Shown: piece by piece, positions 6,381-29,377 of the stretch
Numbering within the stretch: position 1 is the first letter of the stretch
Layout: the number at the start of each line of letters is the position of its first letter
Origin: a virus
Virus record (IMG/VR): IMGVR_UViG_3300006101_000027
Location: 1 to 37,993 of that record
Strand: one strand, 5' to 3'
DNA: 37,993 nt
Translations under genes and position numbers: made by a program
The notes under the pieces: generated by a model
The model's database searches: none
What the model saw: the letters and a program-made list of their open reading frames with translations, nothing else
Told to the model about the DNA's origin: nothing

Positions 6381-7931
6381 ATGGCTAACGATTTGGAAGA
6401 GGCCCTTACTGCCGCGGGTGCTGCTGCACTCGTACAGAAGCAGATTGACCCAGTTTTGCTTGAGTACCAGCGCCGTTATGCGCCACTGGTTCGCTCGCTG
6501 CCTACGGTCAAGTGGGGCTCCACTGTTTACTACTTCAACAAGCGCACTAACCTGCCTACCGGTGGATTCGTTTCCGACGGTGGCGCTCGTAGCGTTACTG
6601 TTTCTAACTACGCCCAGGAGAACTTTCAGATTCGTCTGCTCCAGAGCGTTGGTGCTGTTACAGGTTACTCGCAGGCTGTTACCGCAGACCTGATTGGCGA
6701 CCTCCGCGCCCGTGAAATCGAGGGTGCTGCCCGCGGTCTTTACTGGGACATGGAAACGGCTATCATTTGGGGTGCCGAGGCTCCCACAACTGCTGGTCCG
6801 TACCCTCAGTTCGACGGTCTTGACGTCATCTGTGCTTCGTTCACATCTGCTTCGACCGGTGGCCCTTCGCAGGGTATTGGTGGCGGTACAATCGACAACT
6901 ACGGTGGTGCCTCTGGCTCGACTGGTTGGGCTGGCGCTTCGTACAACCCATGGACTGACGGTGTTGACCAAAACGCCATCAACATGGCTGGTGGGAACCT
7001 TGCTCTTGGTTCGCTTGACCTTCTCATCGACCTCGTGGAAAGCAACGTTGCCGAGCCCGTGGAGAACTCCGAATGGATGTTCCTCATGTCGCCCGCTGCC
7101 AACAGCCGCCTTTCGCAGTTGCTTGTCAACCAGCAGCGTTTCGTTGACCAGGTTGAGATTGCTTCGGGTCTGATTGTTCCCACCTACCGTGGCGTTCCCA
7201 TTGTCAAGTCTTCGTTCTTGGCTCCTCGTACCAACAAGATGGGCGCAGTCACAACGACTATTTCCGGAATCACTGGTACTTTGAACGGTACCTACGGTTA
7301 CGTTGTGGCTCCCGTCATTGCTCGTTTTGGTGAAATCCAGGGCTCGACTGCTGCTTCTGCCGCTCCTTCGACCGGTGGTGTTAAGTTGTCTTTCTCGACC
7401 CCCACGGGTCCTGAAGGTTCGCAGCCTACGCACTACAAGGTTTACCGCACCGCCGCTGGTGGCTCGCAGAGCGTGAACACCAACTTTACCCTTATCGGTA
7501 TGGTTGACGCGTTCTACACCGACAGCACTGGTAACATTTGGCCTACAACCGTCATCACCGACACAGGCTCTGCCCTTGTCCCCAACGACGGTACGCACGC
7601 TATTGGCACCGCTCCCACCTCGTACTACTACGCCAACCCGGGTCTTAACCCGCTGACGTCTAACGGCGAGCAGAGCATCTACCTCATGTCACGTGACCCG
7701 AACTACATTGTTCGTCCTCACGTTCGTGAGATGCAGCCTGTCAACGTGTTCCCGACCACTGCTTCGCCCGACAGCCTGCCGTTCGCCTTTGTTGCGGACA
7801 CCACGCTCGCCGTTCGTGCTCCAAAGTACATTGGTCGCTTGGCCAACGTTCGTGCCGCTCTCGACAGCACTTCTGGTAACGGTTACACGCCGACCAACAC
7901 GTCGTACACGCCTAACTTCATCGTTGACTAA
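6381..7931 (+). CDS. major capsid protein (HK97 fold) with Fn3/Ig-like insertion
   Basis: This is the shell protein: 516 residues, strong ribosome binding site (AAGGAG at 6367-6372), and position just after protease/scaffold. The N-terminal half (YFNKRTNLPTGGFVSDGG, a long helix around RAREIEGAARGLYWDMETAIIWG) fits the N-arm and spine helix of an HK97-type coat protein, and the end (RDPNYIVRPHVREMQPV, APKYIGRLANV) fits the P domain and beta-tail. Residues about 286-403 look like an inserted beta-sandwich (THYKVYRTAAGG is typical of Fn3-like domains), which would project from the capsid surface. GC content is among the highest here (33 G/C in the 60 bases from 7141). A 17-bp hairpin follows the gene. 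Confidence 0.9.
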   Translation: MANDLEEALTAAGAAALVQKQIDPVLLEYQRRYAPLVRSLPTVKWGSTVYYFNKRTNLPTGGFVSDGGARSVTVSNYAQENFQIRLLQSVGAVTGYSQAVTADLIGDLRAREIEGAARGLYWDMETAIIWGAEAPTTAGPYPQFDGLDVICASFTSASTGGPSQGIGGGTIDNYGGASGSTGWAGASYNPWTDGVDQNAINMAGGNLALGSLDLLIDLVESNVAEPVENSEWMFLMSPAANSRLSQLLVNQQRFVDQVEIASGLIVPTYRGVPIVKSSFLAPRTNKMGAVTTTISGITGTLNGTYGYVVAPVIARFGEIQGSTAASAAPSTGGVKLSFSTPTGPEGSQPTHYKVYRTAAGGSQSVNTNFTLIGMVDAFYTDSTGNIWPTTVITDTGSALVPNDGTHAIGTAPTSYYYANPGLNPLTSNGEQSIYLMSRDPNYIVRPHVREMQPVNVFPTTASPDSLPFAFVADTTLAVRAPKYIGRLANVRAALDSTSGNGYTPTNTSYTPNFIVD

Positions 7932-19616: not shown

Positions 19617-21626
19617 ATGAGAAGCCAAGACGCACTTACACTTTTACAGCACCAGTTAAAATGGCAAGGAAACATATTTGCCTCTGGTCGCCAATTTGAA
19701 GGCACGTATTACGGTGTTGTAGTTCAAACCGACGTCAGCACTGGCGACGGCGCAATTACTGCTGGCAATATGACAATCACAATCCCCAACTTGAGTGGCA
19801 CTCAGGTTTGGGGTCCTTTGCCATACCCAGGTTCTGTTGCACCTCCCATTGGTACCCCTTGTTCGTTAACATTCAACATCAACAATACGCCAATCGTGCA
19901 CAGTTTTATTGGTTTTGGCGGTGGGGGAAGCGGCACTCAAGGTCCACAAGGCCCACAGGGCCCACAGGGTGTTGGCGGCACAAACGCGTACTGGTCAGGA
20001 TTTTATGACACAACAAGCCAAACGGGCTCTACAAGTTCTGTAAACCTTGTTGCCATTCATAACACCGCGTTTGGCAACGGTATGACGCTTCTTAATCCTG
20101 GCTCAACAACGTTTGGCACAAATGCAGCCACTGCGGGCTCTGCCGTGCAGATTAACAACGCTGGAAACTACACCCTAACATACCAAGTGATGTTTGCCAA
20201 TAGCGGCACGCAAATTGCTAACGCCGACTTGTGGATTCGACTTAACGGCGTTGACGTACCAACAACAAATATTTATACAACGATTACAGGTTCACATTCT
20301 GGCACTAACGGCACCGCTCTTGCAACGGCAACGTTCAGCATTCCGGCAAACGCTGGCGATTACTACCAACTTTGCTGGGCCCCATCGTCAAGCAATGTTA
20401 GTATTTACGCAGTCCCAGCGCAAACCGGTCCGACTGTTCCTGCCGGCGACTCTGTATTGTTTGCCATTCAACAAATTGCTTTCTCTGGCCCGCAGGGTGT
20501 AACTGGCGCAACTGGCGCAACTGGCGCTACCGGCGCAACTGGTCCGCAAGGTTCGACAGGAGCGGCTGCAACGGTCAATGCTGGCACAACCACAACTGTT
20601 CCATATGGTACGCCGGCTTCAGTAACCAACTCTGGCTCACAAAGTGCCGCAGTATTCAACTTTTCCGTCCCCCAAGGTCCACAGGGTACTGCTGGAACTT
20701 CTGGCACCGCGGCAACTGTTTCAGTTGGAACAACCACTACGGGTGCGCAAGGTACGCAAGCAAGCGTAACCAACTCAGGCTCCTCCTCCGCAGCGGTTCT
20801 TAACTTTACGGTTCCGCAAGGATATCAAGGTGTTGGGTACACGCCAGTTGTAAACAATCAAGGCATTGCCTATGGGGCAAGTCTTGTCGGAACAACGTTA
20901 ACAATCTCCACTCCATTCAACAGTGGAAATCCTTACGGCTTTGGTGCTCTTCAGGTTGGTCAGCGAGTTCGCATTTGTGCTCAATCTGCGCCTACAACAA
21001 ACTATGCAGAAGGCATTTTGACAACTGTAGATGGAACGTTTCCGTCAAGCGCCTACGTTATTTTTACGGTTGACTATTCAATTGGTGACGGTGTAACTCG
21101 TAGCCCAAATACTCTTTTTCTTACGGGTGCAGTTGGCTCACAAGGCTACCAGGGCTACCAAGGAGCACAAGGATACCAAGGTATTCAAGGCGTTGTTACC
21201 ACTAACACTGGCGTACCCCCATCAGACACAACACTTCTTTGGCTTGACCAAACTGCTGCTGGAAACGGTACGCAGGGGCCGCAAGGCTACCAGGGTGGGT
21301 ATTTGCCTCAGGTCGGTACATCATCCGTCCCTAGCAGCGGTTTGCTTACCGTAACAGTTGGTTCCAATACTTCCGTTAAAATTACCAATACGTCTAACCT
21401 TACGGTAGCAATTACCATTTCATCAACGGGCGCCATAGACGGACAATCTCTTGTTGTTAGGTTCTACGATTTTTCTGCTTCTCCAGCAACCTTGTCTTGG
21501 TCAAACACGGAATCAAGCGCAGTTGCCCCGCCGGGTTTTTCTAACGGTTCGACTGTTTCTCCAATTACTGTTGGATTTATTTACAACGGGGCAACATCTA
21601 AATGGCGTTGTGTAGGCTACGTATAA
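19617..21626 (+). CDS. baseplate spike-like protein with collagen-like fibre segments
   Basis: The product is 669 residues. Residues 1-100 look like a spike OB-fold (YYGVVVQTDVSTGDGAITAGNMTITIPNLSG, YPGSVAPPIGTPCSLTFN), similar in layout to gp5/gpV-type proteins, which would fit its place after the hub. It then becomes a fibre: collagen-like G-x-y runs near 106-121 (GPQ triplets), 292-318 (GAT triplets), 351-365, 507-525 (GYQ triplets) and about 550, separated by beta domains. Residues 122-290 resemble a C1q/TNF-like jelly roll. Two copies of a shaft motif (ASVTNSGSQSAAVFNF, then VPQG) occur. The C-terminal domain ends ATSKWRCVGYV and is matched by the end of the 23561-25228 fibre. Translation is probably coupled to the hub gene. 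Confidence 0.75.
   Translation: MRSQDALTLLQHQLKWQGNIFASGRQFEGTYYGVVVQTDVSTGDGAITAGNMTITIPNLSGTQVWGPLPYPGSVAPPIGTPCSLTFNINNTPIVHSFIGFGGGGSGTQGPQGPQGPQGVGGTNAYWSGFYDTTSQTGSTSSVNLVAIHNTAFGNGMTLLNPGSTTFGTNAATAGSAVQINNAGNYTLTYQVMFANSGTQIANADLWIRLNGVDVPTTNIYTTITGSHSGTNGTALATATFSIPANAGDYYQLCWAPSSSNVSIYAVPAQTGPTVPAGDSVLFAIQQIAFSGPQGVTGATGATGATGATGPQGSTGAAATVNAGTTTTVPYGTPASVTNSGSQSAAVFNFSVPQGPQGTAGTSGTAATVSVGTTTTGAQGTQASVTNSGSSSAAVLNFTVPQGYQGVGYTPVVNNQGIAYGASLVGTTLTISTPFNSGNPYGFGALQVGQRVRICAQSAPTTNYAEGILTTVDGTFPSSAYVIFTVDYSIGDGVTRSPNTLFLTGAVGSQGYQGYQGAQGYQGIQGVVTTNTGVPPSDTTLLWLDQTAAGNGTQGPQGYQGGYLPQVGTSSVPSSGLLTVTVGSNTSVKITNTSNLTVAITISSTGAIDGQSLVVRFYDFSASPATLSWSNTESSAVAPPGFSNGSTVSPITVGFIYNGATSKWRCVGYV
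20502..20543 (+). repeat. 9-bp tandem repeat encoding GAT collagen triplets
   Basis: ACTGGCGCA occurs twice exactly and twice with one or two changes in direct succession, followed by ACTGGT. It encodes TGATGATGATGATG. Such short in-phase repeats can change copy number by slippage without breaking the frame. Confidence 0.8.
21135..21191 (+). repeat. Gly-Tyr-Gln collagen-like triplet run
   Basis: Nineteen codons encode GSQGYQGYQGAQGYQGIQG. Tyrosine in the X position of four-in-a-row G-x-Q triplets is unusual for collagen-like phage fibres, which normally use Pro, Ala or Thr. The same G-Y-Q unit recurs in the second fibre (near 23815, 23960 and 24003). Confidence 0.8.
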
Positions 21627-21627
21627 C

Positions 21628-22479
21628 ATGGCTTTTGCTTTTACCACTACACATGGCATTGTTTCTACCAACGGTCCTTACACCGTAATTACCTTTAAAC
21701 AATCCGACACCCTTGTTTGCTCAGGCACATTATCGGGAGCAACCGTCCTCATTGTTGGCGGCGGCAGTTCTGGTGGGGGTGATTTTTCTAAAGGTTCTTA
21801 TAACGGTCGTGGTGGGGGCGGTGGCGCAGGCGGCGTTGTTGCCCTTAGCGGCGTTACCCTTACTGGAAGTATGCCGGTTGTTGTTGGGCTTGGTGGCGCT
21901 GGCGTTGGCGCAAACAACAATGGCGGTAGTTCTTCTTTTGCAGGAGTAACTGCCGGAGGCGGCGGTTATGGTGGTTCAGGAAACGGAGTTGCCCAAAACG
22001 GAATCAGCGGAAGTAGCAGCACTGCTGGTGGCGGTAGCGGCGGTGGCGGTTATGGTTTCTATCCTTTTCCTAATGGAACTGGCGCCCCCGGCGGCCATGA
22101 CGGTGGATTAAATACCGTAGTTGGTGGTGGCGCAGGTGGCGGTGGTGCGGGAAATGTTGGTTCCAATAACGCTGGGACCACCAACGGTGGAGCCGGTGGA
22201 AACGGCGTAACATCTAACATCACTGGCAGTACCGTTTACTACGGTGGCGGTGGCGGTGGCGGAGACGGTGGCGGAACTGGTGGAGCAGGTGGTTTGGGTG
22301 GAGGGGCAGTTGGCGGTTCTGGCTTAAACGCAACACCTAATACGGGTGGCGGTGGCGGAGGCGACAGCGTTTTTAATACTAATATAGGCAACGGTTCCGG
22401 TGGCTCTGGAATTGTTATTGTTTCGTATTTAACGTTGTCAACCACTCAAGGAATTCTTTCAAATTTGGTGTCAGCATGA
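21628..22479 (+). CDS. glycine-rich adhesin-like tail protein
   Basis: The product is 283 residues. The first 45 residues are beta-strand-like (GPYTVITFKQSDTLVCSGTLSGATVLIVGGG), and the remainder is a long polyglycine-rich domain (GGGGGAGGV, GGGGYGGSG, GGGSGGGGYG and similar runs) ending in a hydrophobic strand IVIVSYLTL. This layout recurs in many phage tail-tip proteins, and polyglycine helices form the receptor-binding tip in the S16 gp38 adhesin. The sequence shows the composition, and the receptor-binding role is inferred. Its stop overlaps the ATG of the sulfotransferase gene (ATGA), so the two are translationally coupled. Confidence 0.75.
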   Translation: MAFAFTTTHGIVSTNGPYTVITFKQSDTLVCSGTLSGATVLIVGGGSSGGGDFSKGSYNGRGGGGGAGGVVALSGVTLTGSMPVVVGLGGAGVGANNNGGSSSFAGVTAGGGGYGGSGNGVAQNGISGSSSTAGGGSGGGGYGFYPFPNGTGAPGGHDGGLNTVVGGGAGGGGAGNVGSNNAGTTNGGAGGNGVTSNITGSTVYYGGGGGGGDGGGTGGAGGLGGGAVGGSGLNATPNTGGGGGGDSVFNTNIGNGSGGSGIVIVSYLTLSTTQGILSNLVSA

Positions 22480-23141
22480 ACAAGATTTATCACATTCACA
22501 CACCCAAAACTGGCGGTTCTTTTGTGCGCGTTAGGGTTTTGATTAATGTTTGCGAATTGATGCCAGAGGTTGCAAACCTTAACCTTCAATACGGTTTTCA
22601 CGCAGCATGGCAAAACGTAGACGATGAAACTTACCTTGTTTCTTCTTGGCGCGAACCCGCCGCTCGAACGGTTAGTCAATACACTTACAAAAATAACAAC
22701 CCTACGGTAGATGATTTTTTGTCTTGGTTTGAAAAAAATAAAGATGTGTTGTCTGACTATCAATCAAAAAATCTTTTGTTTGTTCCAAGCGAAAACATAA
22801 CAATGTCAATGTTCATTGACAATCCAGATTTTTTGTCAATTCAAGTTGACCGTGATGAAGTTATGCGTCGCATAGCAAGAATAAATCTATTTTTGCGTGA
22901 TGACCAGTTTCCTTTAAAGTCTGTAGAAATATTAGGCAATCGCATTTTGCAAGATTTTGGTTCAAGTGAAACGTTTCGCTATTGCTTTAATTACGACAAT
23001 GATGACCCCATAAACACAACAGACGCTTCATCAATAATTTATGGTTCCTTGACAAGCGACCAAATAGATTATCTAAACAATTTGAGCCCGCTTGATTACG
23101 AAATTTACAACACCCCAGAATTATTTTGGGACGGAAAATGA
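22476..23141 (+). CDS. PAPS-dependent sulfotransferase
   Basis: The 221-residue product would transfer sulfate from PAPS to an acceptor. The N-terminus carries the 5'-phosphosulfate loop HTPKTGGSF (residues 8-16; K11 would contact the 5' phosphosulfate), the form seen in carbohydrate sulfotransferases (HIPKTGGTS). The 3'-phosphate site is complete: WREPAARTVSQY at 58-69, matching R-[DE]-P-x-x-R-x-x-S-x-Y with R59 and S67 as the binding residues. The rest is alpha-helical and not diagnostic of acceptor. No signal peptide or membrane anchor is seen, so it should act in the cytoplasm. It overlaps the adhesin gene before it and the APS kinase after it (ATGA both times). It is AT-rich: 18 to 22 G/C per 60 bases in the stretches I counted, against 33 in the capsid gene. 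Fold assignment is firm, acceptor unknown. Confidence 0.88.
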   Translation: MNKIYHIHTPKTGGSFVRVRVLINVCELMPEVANLNLQYGFHAAWQNVDDETYLVSSWREPAARTVSQYTYKNNNPTVDDFLSWFEKNKDVLSDYQSKNLLFVPSENITMSMFIDNPDFLSIQVDRDEVMRRIARINLFLRDDQFPLKSVEILGNRILQDFGSSETFRYCFNYDNDDPINTTDASSIIYGSLTSDQIDYLNNLSPLDYEIYNTPELFWDGK

Positions 23142-23560
23142 TTATCCAAATAATTGGATTGCCTGGAGCGGGCAAAACTACTCTTGCAAGTGCAGTCTCT
23201 GAGTGGATTAACGCAATACATATAAACGCTGATGCAGTGCGCAAACATGTAAGCAATGACCTTGGCTTTTCTTTAGCCGACCGCGTAGAGCAAGCACGGC
23301 GTCTTGGCGGCATGGCTCGCATGTTTCAAGAACAAGGTCATAATGTTGTGGTTGATTTTGTGTGCCCGACCAAAGAAACTTGCGAATCATTTGGTAAGCC
23401 GGATTTTTTAATTTGGGTAGACCGAGTTAAAGAATCTAAATTTCAAGACACAAACGCAATGTGGGAAATTCCAAGTCATTTTGATTTGCGTATTCCGGCT
23501 GGATTGACCGTTAAAGAAGAGTTGCAAATGACTTTAGAACTTATTGGAGAGGGGCGGTAA
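23138..23560 (+). CDS. cysC: adenylylsulfate (APS) kinase, compact form
   Basis: The enzyme phosphorylates APS with ATP to make PAPS, the sulfate donor needed by the sulfotransferase next door. The start is the ATG at 23138, in ATGA overlap with the sulfotransferase stop. The 140-residue product has the P-loop GLPGAGKTT (7-15), the NADAVRKHV segment (30-38; D32 and R35 correspond to the APS/metal-binding DGDxxR motif), DLGFSLADRVEQARR (41-55), which is the family signature for APS binding, and DTN at 104-106. Cellular APS kinases are about 180-200 residues; this one lacks most of the lid region, like short phage and marine versions annotated as APS kinase. A related nucleotide kinase with another substrate is possible but less likely. 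No ATP sulfurylase is seen, so APS must come from the host. Confidence 0.82.
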   Translation: MIIQIIGLPGAGKTTLASAVSEWINAIHINADAVRKHVSNDLGFSLADRVEQARRLGGMARMFQEQGHNVVVDFVCPTKETCESFGKPDFLIWVDRVKESKFQDTNAMWEIPSHFDLRIPAGLTVKEELQMTLELIGEGR

Positions 23561-25228
23561 ATGTCTCAGTTGAAATATTTTGTCCCTGCTACAGGTTCGC
23601 CGTTTACGCCAACCGCCGTGTCAGGCACAACAATTACCGTTTCAAGCACCGCCAACCTTACGACTGGTATGTACGTTGAAAACGCCACTTACGGAATCAA
23701 CACAACCATCTCAAGCATTACCAACTCAACGCAATTTGTTGTTGCTTCATCAGCGGGCATTACAACATCCACGCCGCTAAACATCGGCTCTTGGGTTACC
23801 GCTGTCGTTGGACAACAGGGCTACCAAGGCTACCAAGGCAGCGCAGCAACGGTAAACGTTGGAACGACTTCTACCGTCTCCTATGCAACTGGCGCTTCGG
23901 TTACTAATTCTGGCTCACAAAGTACGGCAGTGTTTAATTTTTCTGTTCCTCAAGGCCCTCAGGGCTATCAAGGGCAGGCTGTTACCGGGCCGCAGGGGCC
24001 GCAGGGCTACCAGGGAATTGGTTATTACGGCGTAACATCAATTACCCAAAATACATTATCTACCGGTACATATTCTTTAACCTGGGCCGTTTCTAATAGT
24101 GGTGCTTTTGCAGTTGGTCAACGTGTTCGTGCCGCCCTTACATCACTACCTACTACTTGGGCGTCTGGAACAATAACAGCATTAACGGCGAACTCATCCA
24201 TTACCGTACTTATAGACACAACAAACGGAACTGCAACAACCGCCGGGCCATGGACTTTTAGCACCGATGGTCTTCCAGGGCCACAAGGCGTTACGGGTTC
24301 TCAAGGCTTCCAAGGTTATGGATATATTTTTGTTCCAACAAACTCATTTGCGCCTCAATTGGGTAGTTTTAATTTTAGCAATAGCACCGTAGGTTCTTAT
24401 TCAATTACCGCATATCAAACCGGAGGAAGAGTTCGCCTTGTTGCTACTTCATCTACTAGCGTTTATGTAGAAGGAATAAATACCGGCCCCACAGGTGGTT
24501 TTGGTAACAACACAAACGTAACCATTGACACAATTGGTAACAACGCTTATGGAACCGGTGTCTCTACAACAATTACTGCAACAACTCTTGTACAATCCGC
24601 CTACACTTGGCCAACAAATATTTGGGTTGGCGCTGTTGTAACGGTTGGAACCACTACCGCTACGGTTACATCCAACAACGCAACAACCTTGACGTTTACT
24701 GGCAACTGGTCGTCAACGACCCCGGCAAACGTATCCTCATATTCCATATCATTTTCTAGTTGGTCAATGAGCGTTGCTGGGAACGTAGGGCTACAGGGTC
24801 CACAAGGTACTGCTGGTTCGGGCAACATGTCCACAACTACTTACGACCCTGCGGCTATTGCTCAGCAGATTGTAGGAACCACTGCGGCACAAACTGTTAC
24901 CAACAAACGAATTACCAAACGAATTCTTTCTCTTTCTGCAAACTCTGCCACGCCCACAATAAACACAGACTCTTACGATGTTGTACACATTACGGCGCAA
25001 ACTGCGGCCATTACGTCGTTTACCACAAACCTCACTGGCACCCCTGTTGATGGAGACACTTTGCGAATCAGCGTTACTGGAACTACTGGCATTCCATTGA
25101 CATGGGGAACAAAGTTTGAGCCTTCAACTGCTACACTTCCTACAACAACCACTAGCACAACACGCCTTGACGTTGGTTTCTTTTGGAACACCGAAACATC
25201 AAAATGGCGATGCGTGGCAGTAGCGTAA
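23561..25228 (+). CDS. second collagen-like tail fibre protein
   Basis: The product is 555 residues and starts directly after the APS kinase stop. Residues 1-80 form a small beta module (TTITVSSTANLTTGMYV, SITNSTQFVVAS). Collagen-like G-x-y runs occur near 84-95, 129-153, 240-252 and 409-420, with GYQ and GPQ triplets. Between them are beta domains containing VGQRVRAAL-like and GGRVRLVAT-like strands that match the domain in the first fibre (VGQRVRICAQ). It also has the shaft motif ASVTNSGSQSTAVFNF. The C-terminus ends ETSKWRCVAVA, paralogous to the first fibre's ATSKWRCVGYV, and probably forms a trimerising tip or attachment knob. It is likely a host-binding side fibre. Confidence 0.78.
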   Translation: MSQLKYFVPATGSPFTPTAVSGTTITVSSTANLTTGMYVENATYGINTTISSITNSTQFVVASSAGITTSTPLNIGSWVTAVVGQQGYQGYQGSAATVNVGTTSTVSYATGASVTNSGSQSTAVFNFSVPQGPQGYQGQAVTGPQGPQGYQGIGYYGVTSITQNTLSTGTYSLTWAVSNSGAFAVGQRVRAALTSLPTTWASGTITALTANSSITVLIDTTNGTATTAGPWTFSTDGLPGPQGVTGSQGFQGYGYIFVPTNSFAPQLGSFNFSNSTVGSYSITAYQTGGRVRLVATSSTSVYVEGINTGPTGGFGNNTNVTIDTIGNNAYGTGVSTTITATTLVQSAYTWPTNIWVGAVVTVGTTTATVTSNNATTLTFTGNWSSTTPANVSSYSISFSSWSMSVAGNVGLQGPQGTAGSGNMSTTTYDPAAIAQQIVGTTAAQTVTNKRITKRILSLSANSATPTINTDSYDVVHITAQTAAITSFTTNLTGTPVDGDTLRISVTGTTGIPLTWGTKFEPSTATLPTTTTSTTRLDVGFFWNTETSKWRCVAVA

Positions 25229-25237
25229 GGATAGACA

Positions 25238-27196
25238 ATGGCCGCAACTACTTATTATGTTCGCAATACAAGCAACTACGCCAGTGCATCTGATACGGCA
25301 AATGGTGGAACCTCTCCAACCATTTTGGCAACTAGCACCACCGCCGCGGGCTCAAACAGCACTACCCTTGTTTCCCTTGCAAGCGTTTTTACCGCTTCAA
25401 TGGTTGGGCAAAACGTAAACATTAACAATGGTTCTTGGTATCTTATAACTGCGTACACTTCCGCAACAACTGTAACAATTTCTTACGTTTATGGAGCCAG
25501 TTTTACTGGCACAACAGGACTTACTTTTAATGTTGGTGGACCCTTTGCCACAATTACTGCCGCTCTTCCTAACTCGGCGGTAAACCCAATATATGCAAAT
25601 ACGGTGAACTCTCCAACTATTACTATTTATGTAGGCGCTGGTGTTTATCGGTATTCTACCGCTGCCTTCTTCAGCGGAATAAATTTAAACGTAATTGGTG
25701 ACGTTACTGGCGCCTACACAGGAGATGCTGGGGAGGTGGTAGCAACTTGGTTTACCGCCGACACTGGGGTAACTGGATATGCTGGGCAATGTGCTCTTTT
25801 TTACACAACTCAAACCACCATTTCAAACATTACTTGGATTGGCGGAACTGGCACAAGCACTACAAACGGTTTTATTTTTCAGACCTCACAACTACCCGCT
25901 ACTAGTGGAACTCAAATAATTTCAAACACCTCAACAACTCTTACAATCGGTGGCGTTAGTTGGGCAACAAATCAATGGGCAGGCTACATATTTGAAGTTG
26001 GTAACGTAACCTGTCTTGTTACCTCTAACACATCAAACGTCTTGACTTTTACAGCCGGTTTCAATAACCCTGGTTCTTTGTCTTATAGCACCAGCACTAC
26101 TTGGTATATGTTTGGCCAATTAGTTTTTCAAGATTGCGTTTTTAACGGAATGGCATCTTCTTCTAATATTACAATGTCTAACGGTTACGGAACGGGTTTT
26201 GTTCCATATGTTTTATATGACCGTTGCCTTTTAGTTGGAAAGGGAACAGCAAACAACGCAGTAATAACTCCGTATTTTTCTTTTGGTGGCTCTATTGTCA
26301 TTCAAAATAGCCTTATTATGGGCTGGGGTGGTTCCAACCATGCTGCAATTTGGGTAAGAACAAACGGTTCTTTGCAATATGCAAACATGTGTTACATAAA
26401 TAACTGCACAATTTTTGGCGCAGCGCAAGGTGTTTATTCTTCTGCCACAACAGCAGTAGGAATTGCAAACGTTTCTAATTCTTTTATTTCTGGTGCTGTT
26501 TATGGCGGTTACGGAAGCGGTACTCCTAACGCTATTACTGATGCTGGATACAACCAATGGTTTGGCGGTAGCGCTCTTAGCGGAATAACACTGGCCGGAA
26601 CCTCCTATCAAACCTACACTGGCAGTCCAAGCGGTTCTTCGCCTGCCATTGATTTTGGTCAATGGTCAAAAATCTCAAATCAAATTAGGCCCTTTGCTTC
26701 CCCCAGCAATGTATCCCCGTTGTTGGGTTTTGGCAATGCCAGTATCACTTACGCGGGAACCGTTACGCCAACGCCCACCTACGACGTTTTAAACCGTCCT
26801 AGGCCCTCTGGTGGAGGCTCATCAAAGTACACCATTGGATACGCAGAGCGACACGACTTTGCCGTGCAAGACCTTACAAACTATCCATCTGGCTACACCG
26901 CCTCGGGAAAACTTGTAGGCCCTGGAGACCAAATTGTCTACATTGCAGTTGACTCCGTTGCGCATACATTTGCAGTTCAAGTGTTGCAGAGTTTTACAGG
27001 TACGTCAACTGTCAGCATTTTGGCAAACCCTGAACTTGGCGTTGCGGCTCAGACTCTTTCAAACACTACGTCCGGCTCTTGGCAAACGTTGACATTTTCA
27101 TCTATTACCCCAACCAAACAGGGTTACATTGCTTTGCAAATTACGTCTAAAGACACCGCGGGCACGGGCACTCTTAACTTTGGAGCAATTGTCTAA
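25238..27196 (+). CDS. beta-helix-like tail fibre/tailspike protein
   Basis: The product is 652 residues with AAGGA before the ATG. The section around residues 100-135 (GGPFATITAALP, then TITIYVGAGVYR) is the typical entry of a right-handed beta-helix (pectate-lyase-like) domain. Following repeats such as TTISNITWIGGTG, FQDCVFNGMASSSN, VLYDRCLLVGKG, SIVIQNSLIMGWGG and CYINNCTIFGAAQG are successive rungs, and the C-terminal 90 residues form a beta-sandwich. Tailspikes with this fold often bind or cleave surface polysaccharides; I cannot identify a catalytic pair here, so binding alone is as likely. It is coupled to the next small gene (TAATG). Confidence 0.75.
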   Translation: MAATTYYVRNTSNYASASDTANGGTSPTILATSTTAAGSNSTTLVSLASVFTASMVGQNVNINNGSWYLITAYTSATTVTISYVYGASFTGTTGLTFNVGGPFATITAALPNSAVNPIYANTVNSPTITIYVGAGVYRYSTAAFFSGINLNVIGDVTGAYTGDAGEVVATWFTADTGVTGYAGQCALFYTTQTTISNITWIGGTGTSTTNGFIFQTSQLPATSGTQIISNTSTTLTIGGVSWATNQWAGYIFEVGNVTCLVTSNTSNVLTFTAGFNNPGSLSYSTSTTWYMFGQLVFQDCVFNGMASSSNITMSNGYGTGFVPYVLYDRCLLVGKGTANNAVITPYFSFGGSIVIQNSLIMGWGGSNHAAIWVRTNGSLQYANMCYINNCTIFGAAQGVYSSATTAVGIANVSNSFISGAVYGGYGSGTPNAITDAGYNQWFGGSALSGITLAGTSYQTYTGSPSGSSPAIDFGQWSKISNQIRPFASPSNVSPLLGFGNASITYAGTVTPTPTYDVLNRPRPSGGGSSKYTIGYAERHDFAVQDLTNYPSGYTASGKLVGPGDQIVYIAVDSVAHTFAVQVLQSFTGTSTVSILANPELGVAAQTLSNTTSGSWQTLTFSSITPTKQGYIALQITSKDTAGTGTLNFGAIV

Positions 27197-27469: not shown

Positions 27470-28705
27470 ATGATTAGTGTATTTACGCCAAGCCATAACT
27501 CTAAATTCTTAGATGATTGCTACGCTTCTCTAAAAGCGCAAACAATTGAGAATTGGGAATGGATTGTTCTCCTTAATGGTGGCGCTGAGTGGTCTCGTCC
27601 AGAGTGGGACGACCGTGTTCGAGTTGCGTATGCAGATGAAAAACTGCAAGGCGTAGGCGCACTGAAGCGTCATGCCGTTGAACTTTGTTCCGGCAGGATT
27701 CTTGTGGAACTTGACCACGACGACTTGCTTGCCCCCAACGCTCTAGAAGAAATTCAAAACGTTTTCAAGGACCCTTACACTGTCTTTGCTTACTCTGACT
27801 TTGCTCAAATTAACGAAGACGGCACCCCAAACCACCAGCGATTTGATGAATCATTTGGTTGGGAATACTATCAAGAGGGTGAGCATTTGGTCTGCAAGGG
27901 CCTCGAGCCTAGTCCGCACAATGTTTCTTACATTTGGTATGCCCCCAATCATGTCCGCGCTTTTTTAAAGTTTGCGTACGACACTGCGGGCGGATACGAT
28001 TCTTCAAAAAAAGTTCTTGACGACCAAGATTTGATGACGCGTCTTTACTTGATTGGCGGCTTTCACCACATTGAAAAGTGTTTGTACTACCAACGTGTAC
28101 ACACGCTAAACACGCAAAAAGACCCAGAGACCAACAAGTTTATTCAAGAAGAAACTGTGCGTCTTCATGGGCAAACCATTCAGCCCCTTTTGTTGAAGTG
28201 GGCCGAAGATGAAGGTCTTTTGGCTCTTGACCTTGGTGGGGCGCACAATCCTGCACCCGGTTACAAAACCGTCGACCTTAATGAGCCTGCTGATTTCTTA
28301 GGCGACATTTTTAACGTGCTGGGCGACATGGAAGACAATTCTGTAGGCGTTATTCGAGCCGTTGATTTCTGCGAACACATTTCAGATAAGATTCGATTGT
28401 GGAATGAGTTTCACCGGGTTCTTGCCCACGGCGGCATGGTCCTTAGCCTTACCCCCAGCACCGATGGCCGAGGCGCCTTCCAAGACCCTACGCACGTTGC
28501 GTTTTACAACGAAAACAGTTTTTGGTATTGGACAGACGACCAGTTTCGCCGGTTTGTCCCAGAAATTACTTGCAACTTTCAAGTAAGCCAACTTTTCACT
28601 CACTTCCCAAGCGAGTGGCACCAAGCAAACAATATCCCTTATGTCTGCGCCAACCTTATTGCAATTAAGGAAGGTCCGCGCCAGGGGGGCAGACTAGGAA
28701 TCTAA
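27470..28705 (+). CDS. glycosyltransferase family 2 fused to a methyltransferase-like domain
   Basis: The 411-residue product has two domains. Residues 1-220 are a GT-A fold glycosyltransferase of family 2: start ISVFTPSHNS, then WEWIVLLNGG, and the metal-binding DxD in VELDHDD (D82, D84), followed by the acceptor-side segment with KKVLDDQDLMTRL. Residues about 245-400 resemble a class I SAM-dependent methyltransferase: LALDLGGAHNPAPGYKTVDL, then VDFCEHISD, HRVLAHGGMVLSLTPS and the tail ending in NLIAIKE. Such two-domain proteins are found in other phages in or near tail genes. It lies between fibre and baseplate wedge genes, has its own promoter, and could decorate fibres or host glycans. 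No membrane segment is seen. Sugar and methyl acceptor are unknown. Confidence 0.85.
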   Translation: MISVFTPSHNSKFLDDCYASLKAQTIENWEWIVLLNGGAEWSRPEWDDRVRVAYADEKLQGVGALKRHAVELCSGRILVELDHDDLLAPNALEEIQNVFKDPYTVFAYSDFAQINEDGTPNHQRFDESFGWEYYQEGEHLVCKGLEPSPHNVSYIWYAPNHVRAFLKFAYDTAGGYDSSKKVLDDQDLMTRLYLIGGFHHIEKCLYYQRVHTLNTQKDPETNKFIQEETVRLHGQTIQPLLLKWAEDEGLLALDLGGAHNPAPGYKTVDLNEPADFLGDIFNVLGDMEDNSVGVIRAVDFCEHISDKIRLWNEFHRVLAHGGMVLSLTPSTDGRGAFQDPTHVAFYNENSFWYWTDDQFRRFVPEITCNFQVSQLFTHFPSEWHQANNIPYVCANLIAIKEGPRQGGRLGI

Positions 28706-29377
28706 ATGGCTGACGCTATTACAGAACTTACAGCAACATGGGTTGCAGGAAGCGGAATCCAATTAAATTGGACGGCGGCGAGCGACGTCACCAATGGCTC
28801 CATTTACCAAGTGTACGTACTAGCAAATGCCGACCAAACCATTCCTGTTTGGAACTTGTTTACCTCTCTTGCGCCAAACGTTGTGCGAGCAAGCGGAACC
28901 TCAAACCTTAGTTTGGTCGCCCCGGTCCCTTCGTATTTTTATAAGTTTCCTAACTTGACAAATATCCCCGCGTCGGTTGCCTTTAGCATTATTCACGTAG
29001 ATTATTTAAACGCAAGCAGCGTTCCGCTAAATATTTCAGTTTTTTCTCCGTCTGTAAACCCTGTCTATGGTCCGCCGCATTTTCAAAACAATTTTACTCT
29101 TGACCCTTTTGGTCAATTGTCCGTCAACCCTCAAGATTCTTACGAAGAAATATCTTCTTCAGTTGCAATGGTTGTAGGGGCGCTTATTGGCGAAAGAACA
29201 ATGCTTCCCGAGTTTGGCATTGAAGACCCAACCTTTACCGATATTGACACAGAATCTATTGAACAAACAATTCAACGTTGGGAGCCACGGGCCAACGCAA
29301 ATGTTTCAGTAGAATATGACGACAACAATAACGCTTCTTTAAGCGTATCAATCACCAGTAATTTGGGAAGTGACTAA
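28706..29377 (+). CDS. baseplate wedge protein (gp25-like) with N-terminal Fn3-like domain
   Basis: The product is 223 residues. The C-terminal 95 residues fit the gp25/gpW family: FQNNFTLDPFGQLSVNPQDSYEEISSSVAMVVGALIGERTMLPEFGI, where the E-R-x-x-x-x-x-[FY]-G motif is the family signature. Gp25 proteins are usually 110-140 residues; the extra N-terminal 125 residues (LTATWVAGSGIQLNWTAASDVTNGSIYQVYVLANAD) look like an Fn3 domain. It begins the wedge gene set and overlaps the J-like gene by one base (TAATG). It would connect sheath and wedge. Confidence 0.82.
   Translation: MADAITELTATWVAGSGIQLNWTAASDVTNGSIYQVYVLANADQTIPVWNLFTSLAPNVVRASGTSNLSLVAPVPSYFYKFPNLTNIPASVAFSIIHVDYLNASSVPLNISVFSPSVNPVYGPPHFQNNFTLDPFGQLSVNPQDSYEEISSSVAMVVGALIGERTMLPEFGIEDPTFTDIDTESIEQTIQRWEPRANANVSVEYDDNNNASLSVSITSNLGSD

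Follow-up and report, generated by a model that had tools for sequence, protein, structure and literature searches.

An overlapping gene pair for a predicted sulfotransferase and an APS-kinase-like protein in the tail module of an environmental phage, a candidate for fibre glycan sulfation

The window, by which we mean the whole 37,993-base stretch of DNA analysed here, is an IMG/VR virus record whose plus strand encodes the structural module of a tailed phage, with genes for large terminase, portal, protease, major head protein, connector, tail tube and fibres. A 1167-aa gene lies at the position expected for the tape measure, and a gp25-like baseplate protein and further tail-region genes are also encoded. 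Judged from its terminase, portal, tail tube and gp25-like baseplate genes, the phage appears to be contractile-tailed.

In the tail region, with all genes on the plus strand, a collagen-like fibre protein of 669 aa with GPQG/GYQG repeats (19617-21626; PHROG tail fibre matches and a weak match to Pfam Collagen) is followed by a glycine-rich, adhesin-like protein of 283 aa (21628-22479; Pfam Gly_rich_2, 2.9e-16; phrog_2295, 8e-32). The ATGA at 22476-22479 is common to the glycine-rich gene and to ORF1 (22476-23141, ATG start, 221 aa), which encodes a predicted sulfotransferase. A second ATGA, at 23138-23141, is common to ORF1 and ORF2 (23138-23560, 140 aa), the gene of an APS-kinase-like protein. 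A mechanical ORF caller had chosen a TTG at 23126 as the start of ORF2, which we set aside for the ATG at 23138. The stop codon of ORF2 (23558-23560) is directly followed by the ATG of a second collagen-like fibre gene (23561-25228, 555 aa; PHROG matches to collagen-like families). Further downstream are a large protein of 652 aa without convincing family match (25238-27196), which we regard as fibre-like from its position between the fibre and glycosyltransferase genes, a fusion of a family 2 glycosyltransferase and a methyltransferase (GT2-MT; 27470-28705, 411 aa; Pfam Glycos_transf_2, 1.3e-13; Methyltransf_11, 8e-4, just below its cut-off), and the gp25-like baseplate protein, a marker of the tail module (28706-29377, 223 aa; phrog_5026, 4.6e-11). 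An earlier note on this DNA had placed the pair in a tail-fibre operon. Both four-base overlaps and the fibre gene right behind ORF2 are as it described them, and the flanking genes are indeed fibre-like; the pair, however, lies inside a phage tail module and not in a stand-alone fibre operon.

ORF1 contains the motifs PKTGGS at residues 10-15 (5'-PSB) and REPAARTVSQY at residues 59-69 (3'-PB), as previously read from the sequence. Searched alone, the window protein yielded nothing usable from Pfam, NCBIfam, PDB or 50,697 phage records and only a weak PHROG match (galactose-3-O-sulfotransferase, E 0.011); its class had no match among the isolated phages in the collection searched. Recognition was made possible only by a family profile built on IMG/VR relatives. 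In four relatives that are 30-35% identical to ORF1, residues K11, G13, G14, R59, P61, R64 and S67 are invariant, and over 21 family members H8, K11, G14, H42, R59, P61 and S67 are. With the family profile, heparan sulfate 6-O-sulfotransferase (HS6ST) ranked first (E 1.3e-3) with an alignment spanning both PSB motifs, and the 3-O and 2-O heparan enzymes followed with weaker scores. Pfam Sulfotransfer_2 does not match the window protein; it matches the relative in L003 (24.5 bits, cut-off 22) and six of the 21 family members at E 0.01 or better.

The AlphaFold (AF2) model of ORF1 (pLDDT 86.9, pTM 0.86) superimposes on HS6ST with a Z score of 12.5 (rmsd 4.2 over 192 residues) and on the 2-O enzyme HS2ST with 11.6 (VIA), and the 50 matches listed in this comparison were all sulfotransferases. 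Tyrosylprotein sulfotransferases appear lower in the list (Z about 7.5). A Foldseek search with the model was weak (best E 0.016). The invariant H42 lies within the sequence GFHAAW, which resembles a segment GLHADW in the HS6ST chain; for HS6ST, a histidine of this region has been proposed to act as the base, and H42 may be its counterpart. ORF1 thus resembles HS6ST and HS2ST, which are of the Sulfotransfer_2 type, in its fold, in the 5'-PSB and 3'-PB motifs and in this segment, and it shares with HS6ST a C-terminal stretch ending in DxxxY. In contrast to these enzymes, with which it shares about 15% identity, it is only 221 aa long, shows no membrane anchor by eye, lacks a Pfam match of its own, and is encoded by a phage in a fibre locus. 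Based on the family profile, the invariant PAPS-binding residues and the model, we identify ORF1 as a predicted PAPS-type sulfotransferase nearest to the heparan sulfate 6-O/2-O enzymes.

ORF2 carries the P-loop GLPGAGKT, NADAVRKHV and DLGFSLADR, again the motifs claimed before. It matches Pfam APS_kinase (PF01583) at 7e-15 (55.8 bits, cut-off 21.1; profile positions 4-88 of 152), and in a sequence search among solved structures APS kinases came out on top at about 1e-9, with local alignments ending near residue 80-96. The AF2 model (pLDDT 94.7) aligns over all 140 residues with APS kinases, with Z scores up to 18.8 and an rmsd of about 2; gluconate kinases come next (Z 16.2). Hence, the predicted folds of both proteins are those that the earlier note had named. 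As in CysC and the APSK domain of PAPS synthetase (PAPSS), the P-loop, NADxxR and DLGFxxxDR are present. ORF2 differs from CysC in being about 30 residues shorter than ordinary APS kinases, due to a reduced lid segment, in reading NADA for DGDN, and in staying below the cut-off of the NCBIfam apsK equivalog TIGR00455 (56.5 versus 138.7 bits). The full lid of APS kinases reads KGLYxKARxGxIxxFTG, and it is absent from all rows of the kinase family alignment. The P-loop and NADxxR are found in 77 of 77 distinct kinase domains and DLGFxxxDR in 71; the arginine after DGD/NAD and the DLGFxxxDR motif are of the APS-binding type known from APS kinases. With 34 alignment columns invariant in 23 family members and the motif set kept in most of the 77 domains, the short form does not look like the result of decay. 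As the equivalog cut-off is not reached, we file ORF2 as a divergent APS_kinase-family protein and not as CysC itself; from its sequence and model it probably works like an APS kinase. The missed cut-off and the shortened lid leave APS as its presumed substrate.

To evaluate the linkage of the two genes, we called genes in the kinase loci and compared 27 phage kinase representatives, all less than 80% identical to each other. A sulfotransferase gene lies directly upstream (gene -1) of 12 of these 27 kinases and at 2 of 389 other neighbouring positions (Fisher p 3e-14), and nine of the 12 overlap the kinase gene by four bases. Coarser clustering of the kinases gave the same picture (9 of 17). 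The enrichment is somewhat inflated, because some of the seed sequences for the sulfotransferase profiles came from genes next to the kinase; Pfam confirms many of the genes independently. The linked enzymes fall into several unlike classes, including that of the window, the Pfam-confirmed Sulfotransfer_3 and an FPRSGN-type, and a class with the motif NYKVGG immediately precedes the kinase in L017 and L052 and lies at a greater distance upstream in other loci. This linkage is the strongest result of the analysis, and it is mainly this recurrent pairing with unlike sulfotransferases that leads us to think that the kinase supplies PAPS. In a related lineage (L003 versus L091, NG86) dN/dS is about 0.21 for the sulfotransferase and 0.12 for the kinase, indicating purifying selection on both genes. 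Together with the Pfam APS_kinase match and the invariant motif residues, this argues that the gene pair is more than a chance arrangement. Records L001 and L002 carry the same two genes and were not counted as independent evidence, the L002 contig being 99.97% identical to the window over 31 kb.

In three lineages, represented by the window, by L003 with L091-L094, and by L023, the pair is located between fibre-like genes, which bears out the expectation that a pair with the same overlap would recur beside fibre genes in other phages. The earlier note had regarded other folds or missing linkage in related phages as arguments against its reading; with folds as predicted and linkage conserved, it stood up in those tests that were run. 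A sulfotransferase is present with six of the seven kinases that have a fibre-like gene within three genes. Half of the sulfotransferase-linked kinases are not near fibre-like genes; the pairs of L006 and L089 lie outside fibre loci. The window and the L003, L093 and L094 phages have the order fibre, glycine-rich protein, sulfotransferase, kinase, fibre, fibre and GT2-MT in common. Directly after the kinase, the L003 phage encodes a stretch 41% identical to the fibre protein at 23561-25228, and GT2-MT of the three phages is 60-61% identical to that of the window; of the remaining proteins of the window, few could be matched in the L003 phage. The repeats of the fibres differ, being mostly GNQG/GVQG/GFQG with few tyrosines in the L003 lineage, while the window fibres have many GYQG repeats. 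In L023, the protein encoded directly after the kinase (6414-7889, 491 aa) has cysteine-rich repeats (CCTGxN, NNCASS) that are unusual for a phage fibre.

The tail module of the window holds a glycosyltransferase. GT2-MT was considered as a specific partner of the pair and rejected: most of its relatives occur without a sulfotransferase, and we therefore treat it as part of the setting and not of the linkage. The syntenic relative L136 lacks everything that lies between the N-terminal portion of the first fibre gene and GT2-MT; that N-terminal portion matches a short protein of 149 aa in L136. According to our reading of the sequences, L134 (2-3236) and L139 (4777-8227) carry extra glycosyltransferase-like genes directly before GT2-MT. 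The gap in L136 and these extra genes indicate that the fibre and glycosylation region is variable and that the pair is one of its accessory parts. The additional glycosyltransferase-like proteins of L134 and L139 have repeat-rich C-termini.

The kinase family is common in IMG/VR, with at least 560 confirmed matches per scan. A long form of about 251 aa (L005, 2632-3387; L089, 5711-6466; and others) is fused to a small C-terminal domain, for which profile matches point to NMN adenylyltransferases and not to sulfurylases. The long form shares with PAPSS the order of a nucleotidyltransferase domain after a kinase domain, but its extra domain is small and NMN-adenylyltransferase-like, and the window kinase lacks it. 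The long form is also present in isolated Casjensviridae phages, whose annotation shows no sulfotransferase near it. In Stenotrophomonas phage Bhz60 (L114, 2553-3729) the long kinase directly follows a gene with a NADAR domain, which hints at an NAD-linked role in this branch. In cellular genomes, relatives were found in one contig of a Chitinophagaceae MAG and in SAR11 cells, all of them distant; at the SAR11 loci no sulfotransferase was detected, and in two SAR11 proteins examined the DLGF...DR motif, which is retained by the phage proteins, has been lost. At one SAR11 locus (L126, 5995-6793) the relative without this motif is followed by a separate gene for a 124-aa nucleotidyltransferase, and its neighbours read like metallopeptidase, oxygenase and enoyl-CoA hydratase. 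Taking the long forms, the Casjensviridae and NADAR neighbours and the SAR11 relatives together, some family members may do something other than make PAPS. Around some long kinases (L034, 4031-8772, and similar loci) genes resembling luciferase-type monooxygenases, 2OG oxygenases and flavin-dependent halogenases are found together with a Sulfotransfer_2 gene, possibly forming a modification island. A protein of about 225 aa adjoins the kinase in three unlike contigs (L006, 5592-6281; L074, 6419-7102; L079, 3345-4016) and has no Pfam match where tested.

We propose that the pair constitutes a sulfation module among the tail genes, in which the kinase makes PAPS and the sulfotransferase sulfates a sugar, most likely in a glycan on the phage's own fibres. 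We give this reading a probability of roughly 0.45. From the genes, their overlaps and predicted folds, the conserved cofactor residues, the recurrent adjacency and the fibre context, all established computationally, we infer APS as the substrate of the kinase, PAPS as the sulfate donor, a sugar as the acceptor and a fibre as its carrier. The phage kinase would phosphorylate APS made by the host to PAPS. The sulfotransferase, whose gene overlaps that of the kinase, would probably be translated in a coupled way with it and would pass the sulfate from PAPS to a sugar hydroxyl. The most likely acceptor would be a glycan attached to the collagen-like or glycine-rich fibres and built with GT2-MT, which is encoded 4 kb downstream; the proximity of GT2-MT, which the earlier note had not brought up, favours a sugar on a fibre. 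The acceptor would then share both its compartment and its gene block with the pair. A kinase of its own would benefit a phage in hosts with direct reduction of APS and a small pool of PAPS. The module had been called self-contained, a term we do not retain: the kinase would depend on a supply of APS, and a search for ATP sulfurylase in the window and four related contigs, which may be fragments, found none.

The main rival keeps the same enzymes and places the sulfate on a surface glycan of the host (capsule, O-antigen or a lipid-linked precursor), blocking re-adsorption of progeny or superinfection. We consider this somewhat unlikely. The similarity of ORF1 to polysaccharide sulfotransferases and the pairs outside fibre loci would suit a host glycan as well, and changes of host serotype brought about by phage glycosyltransferases are known (cited in a passage of PMC12619734). 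On the other hand, the window pair has its place within the tail module, with genes for fibres and for the baseplate to either side, co-expression with virion proteins would come late for altering the host, and no integrase or O-antigen-conversion gene was recognised among the window ORFs searched. Sulfation of a protein side chain without any sugar, for example of tyrosines in the GYQG collagen-like repeats, is quite improbable. Such repeats abound in the window fibres and tyrosylprotein sulfotransferases do occur in the fold list, though far down; the closest folds, however, are carbohydrate O-sulfotransferases, which makes a side chain the less likely acceptor, and the fibre repeats of the L003 lineage offer few tyrosines.

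Two further explanations concern the kinase. It might phosphorylate some other small molecule, with the sulfotransferase using PAPS of the host or being linked to the kinase in another way. The short lid, the score below the apsK cut-off, the gluconate kinases close behind the APS kinases by fold and the fusion of the long form to an NMN-adenylyltransferase-like domain are compatible with this, as are the isolated Casjensviridae, one with a NADAR gene beside the kinase, and the SAR11 loci. We nevertheless regard it as unlikely for the pair, in view of the retention of DLGFxxxDR in most phage kinases and its loss in the two SAR11 proteins, and of several unlike sulfotransferase classes located exactly at gene -1. 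In the usual reading of viral cysC, the kinase would be an auxiliary metabolic gene for sulfur assimilation of the host, and papers on lake viromes list cysC in viruses under this heading (PMC9611531, PMC8066274). In the window and the four related contigs, which are possibly fragments, no PAPS reductase was found, while the control of this search was positive in 14 of 14 genomes. As no ATP sulfurylase was found in the five contigs either, this role was dropped. It also fits poorly with a kinase whose partner in the tail module is an enzyme of a PAPS-consuming type, and we judge it most improbable.

The viral cysC genes and phage sulfotransferases described in earlier papers (PMC9611531, PMC8066274, PMC10580990, PMC8290583) belong to the same general enzyme classes and also come from environmental phages, but they were reported as isolated genes, in contrast to the overlapping pair in a fibre setting described here; the function of phage sulfotransferases has been stated to be unclear (PMC10580990). 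Searches of the open-access literature turned up neither the coupled pair nor sulfation of phage fibres, and one for a sulfotransferase together with a tail fibre returned no paper. Virion proteins of actinobacteriophages, namely capsid and tail tube, are glycosylated (Freeman et al. 2023, as cited in passages of PMC12619734 and PMC13313380), and genes for glycosyltransferases and methyltransferases are taken as its sign there. The passages concerned mention no sulfation; the modification of virions proposed here is deduced from gene content alone.

The recurrence of the pair in unrelated environmental phages suggests sulfation by some phages, either of their own fibres or of a host sugar. Tentatively, environmental phages would sulfate the glycans of their own tail fibres by dedicated, probably coupled genes, an undescribed virion modification that would alter receptor choice or shield the fibre. 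Sulfotransferases and cysC have been listed singly among the viral auxiliary genes of unclear role. The recurrent overlapping pair shows that both genes belong together and that they form part of the fibre locus in some of the phages. This leads to the testable proposal that some phages sulfate the virion or a host glycan. If virions are sulfated, a charged group would join the modifications known for them, which would bear on receptor binding and on the reading of viral cysC as sulfur metabolism.
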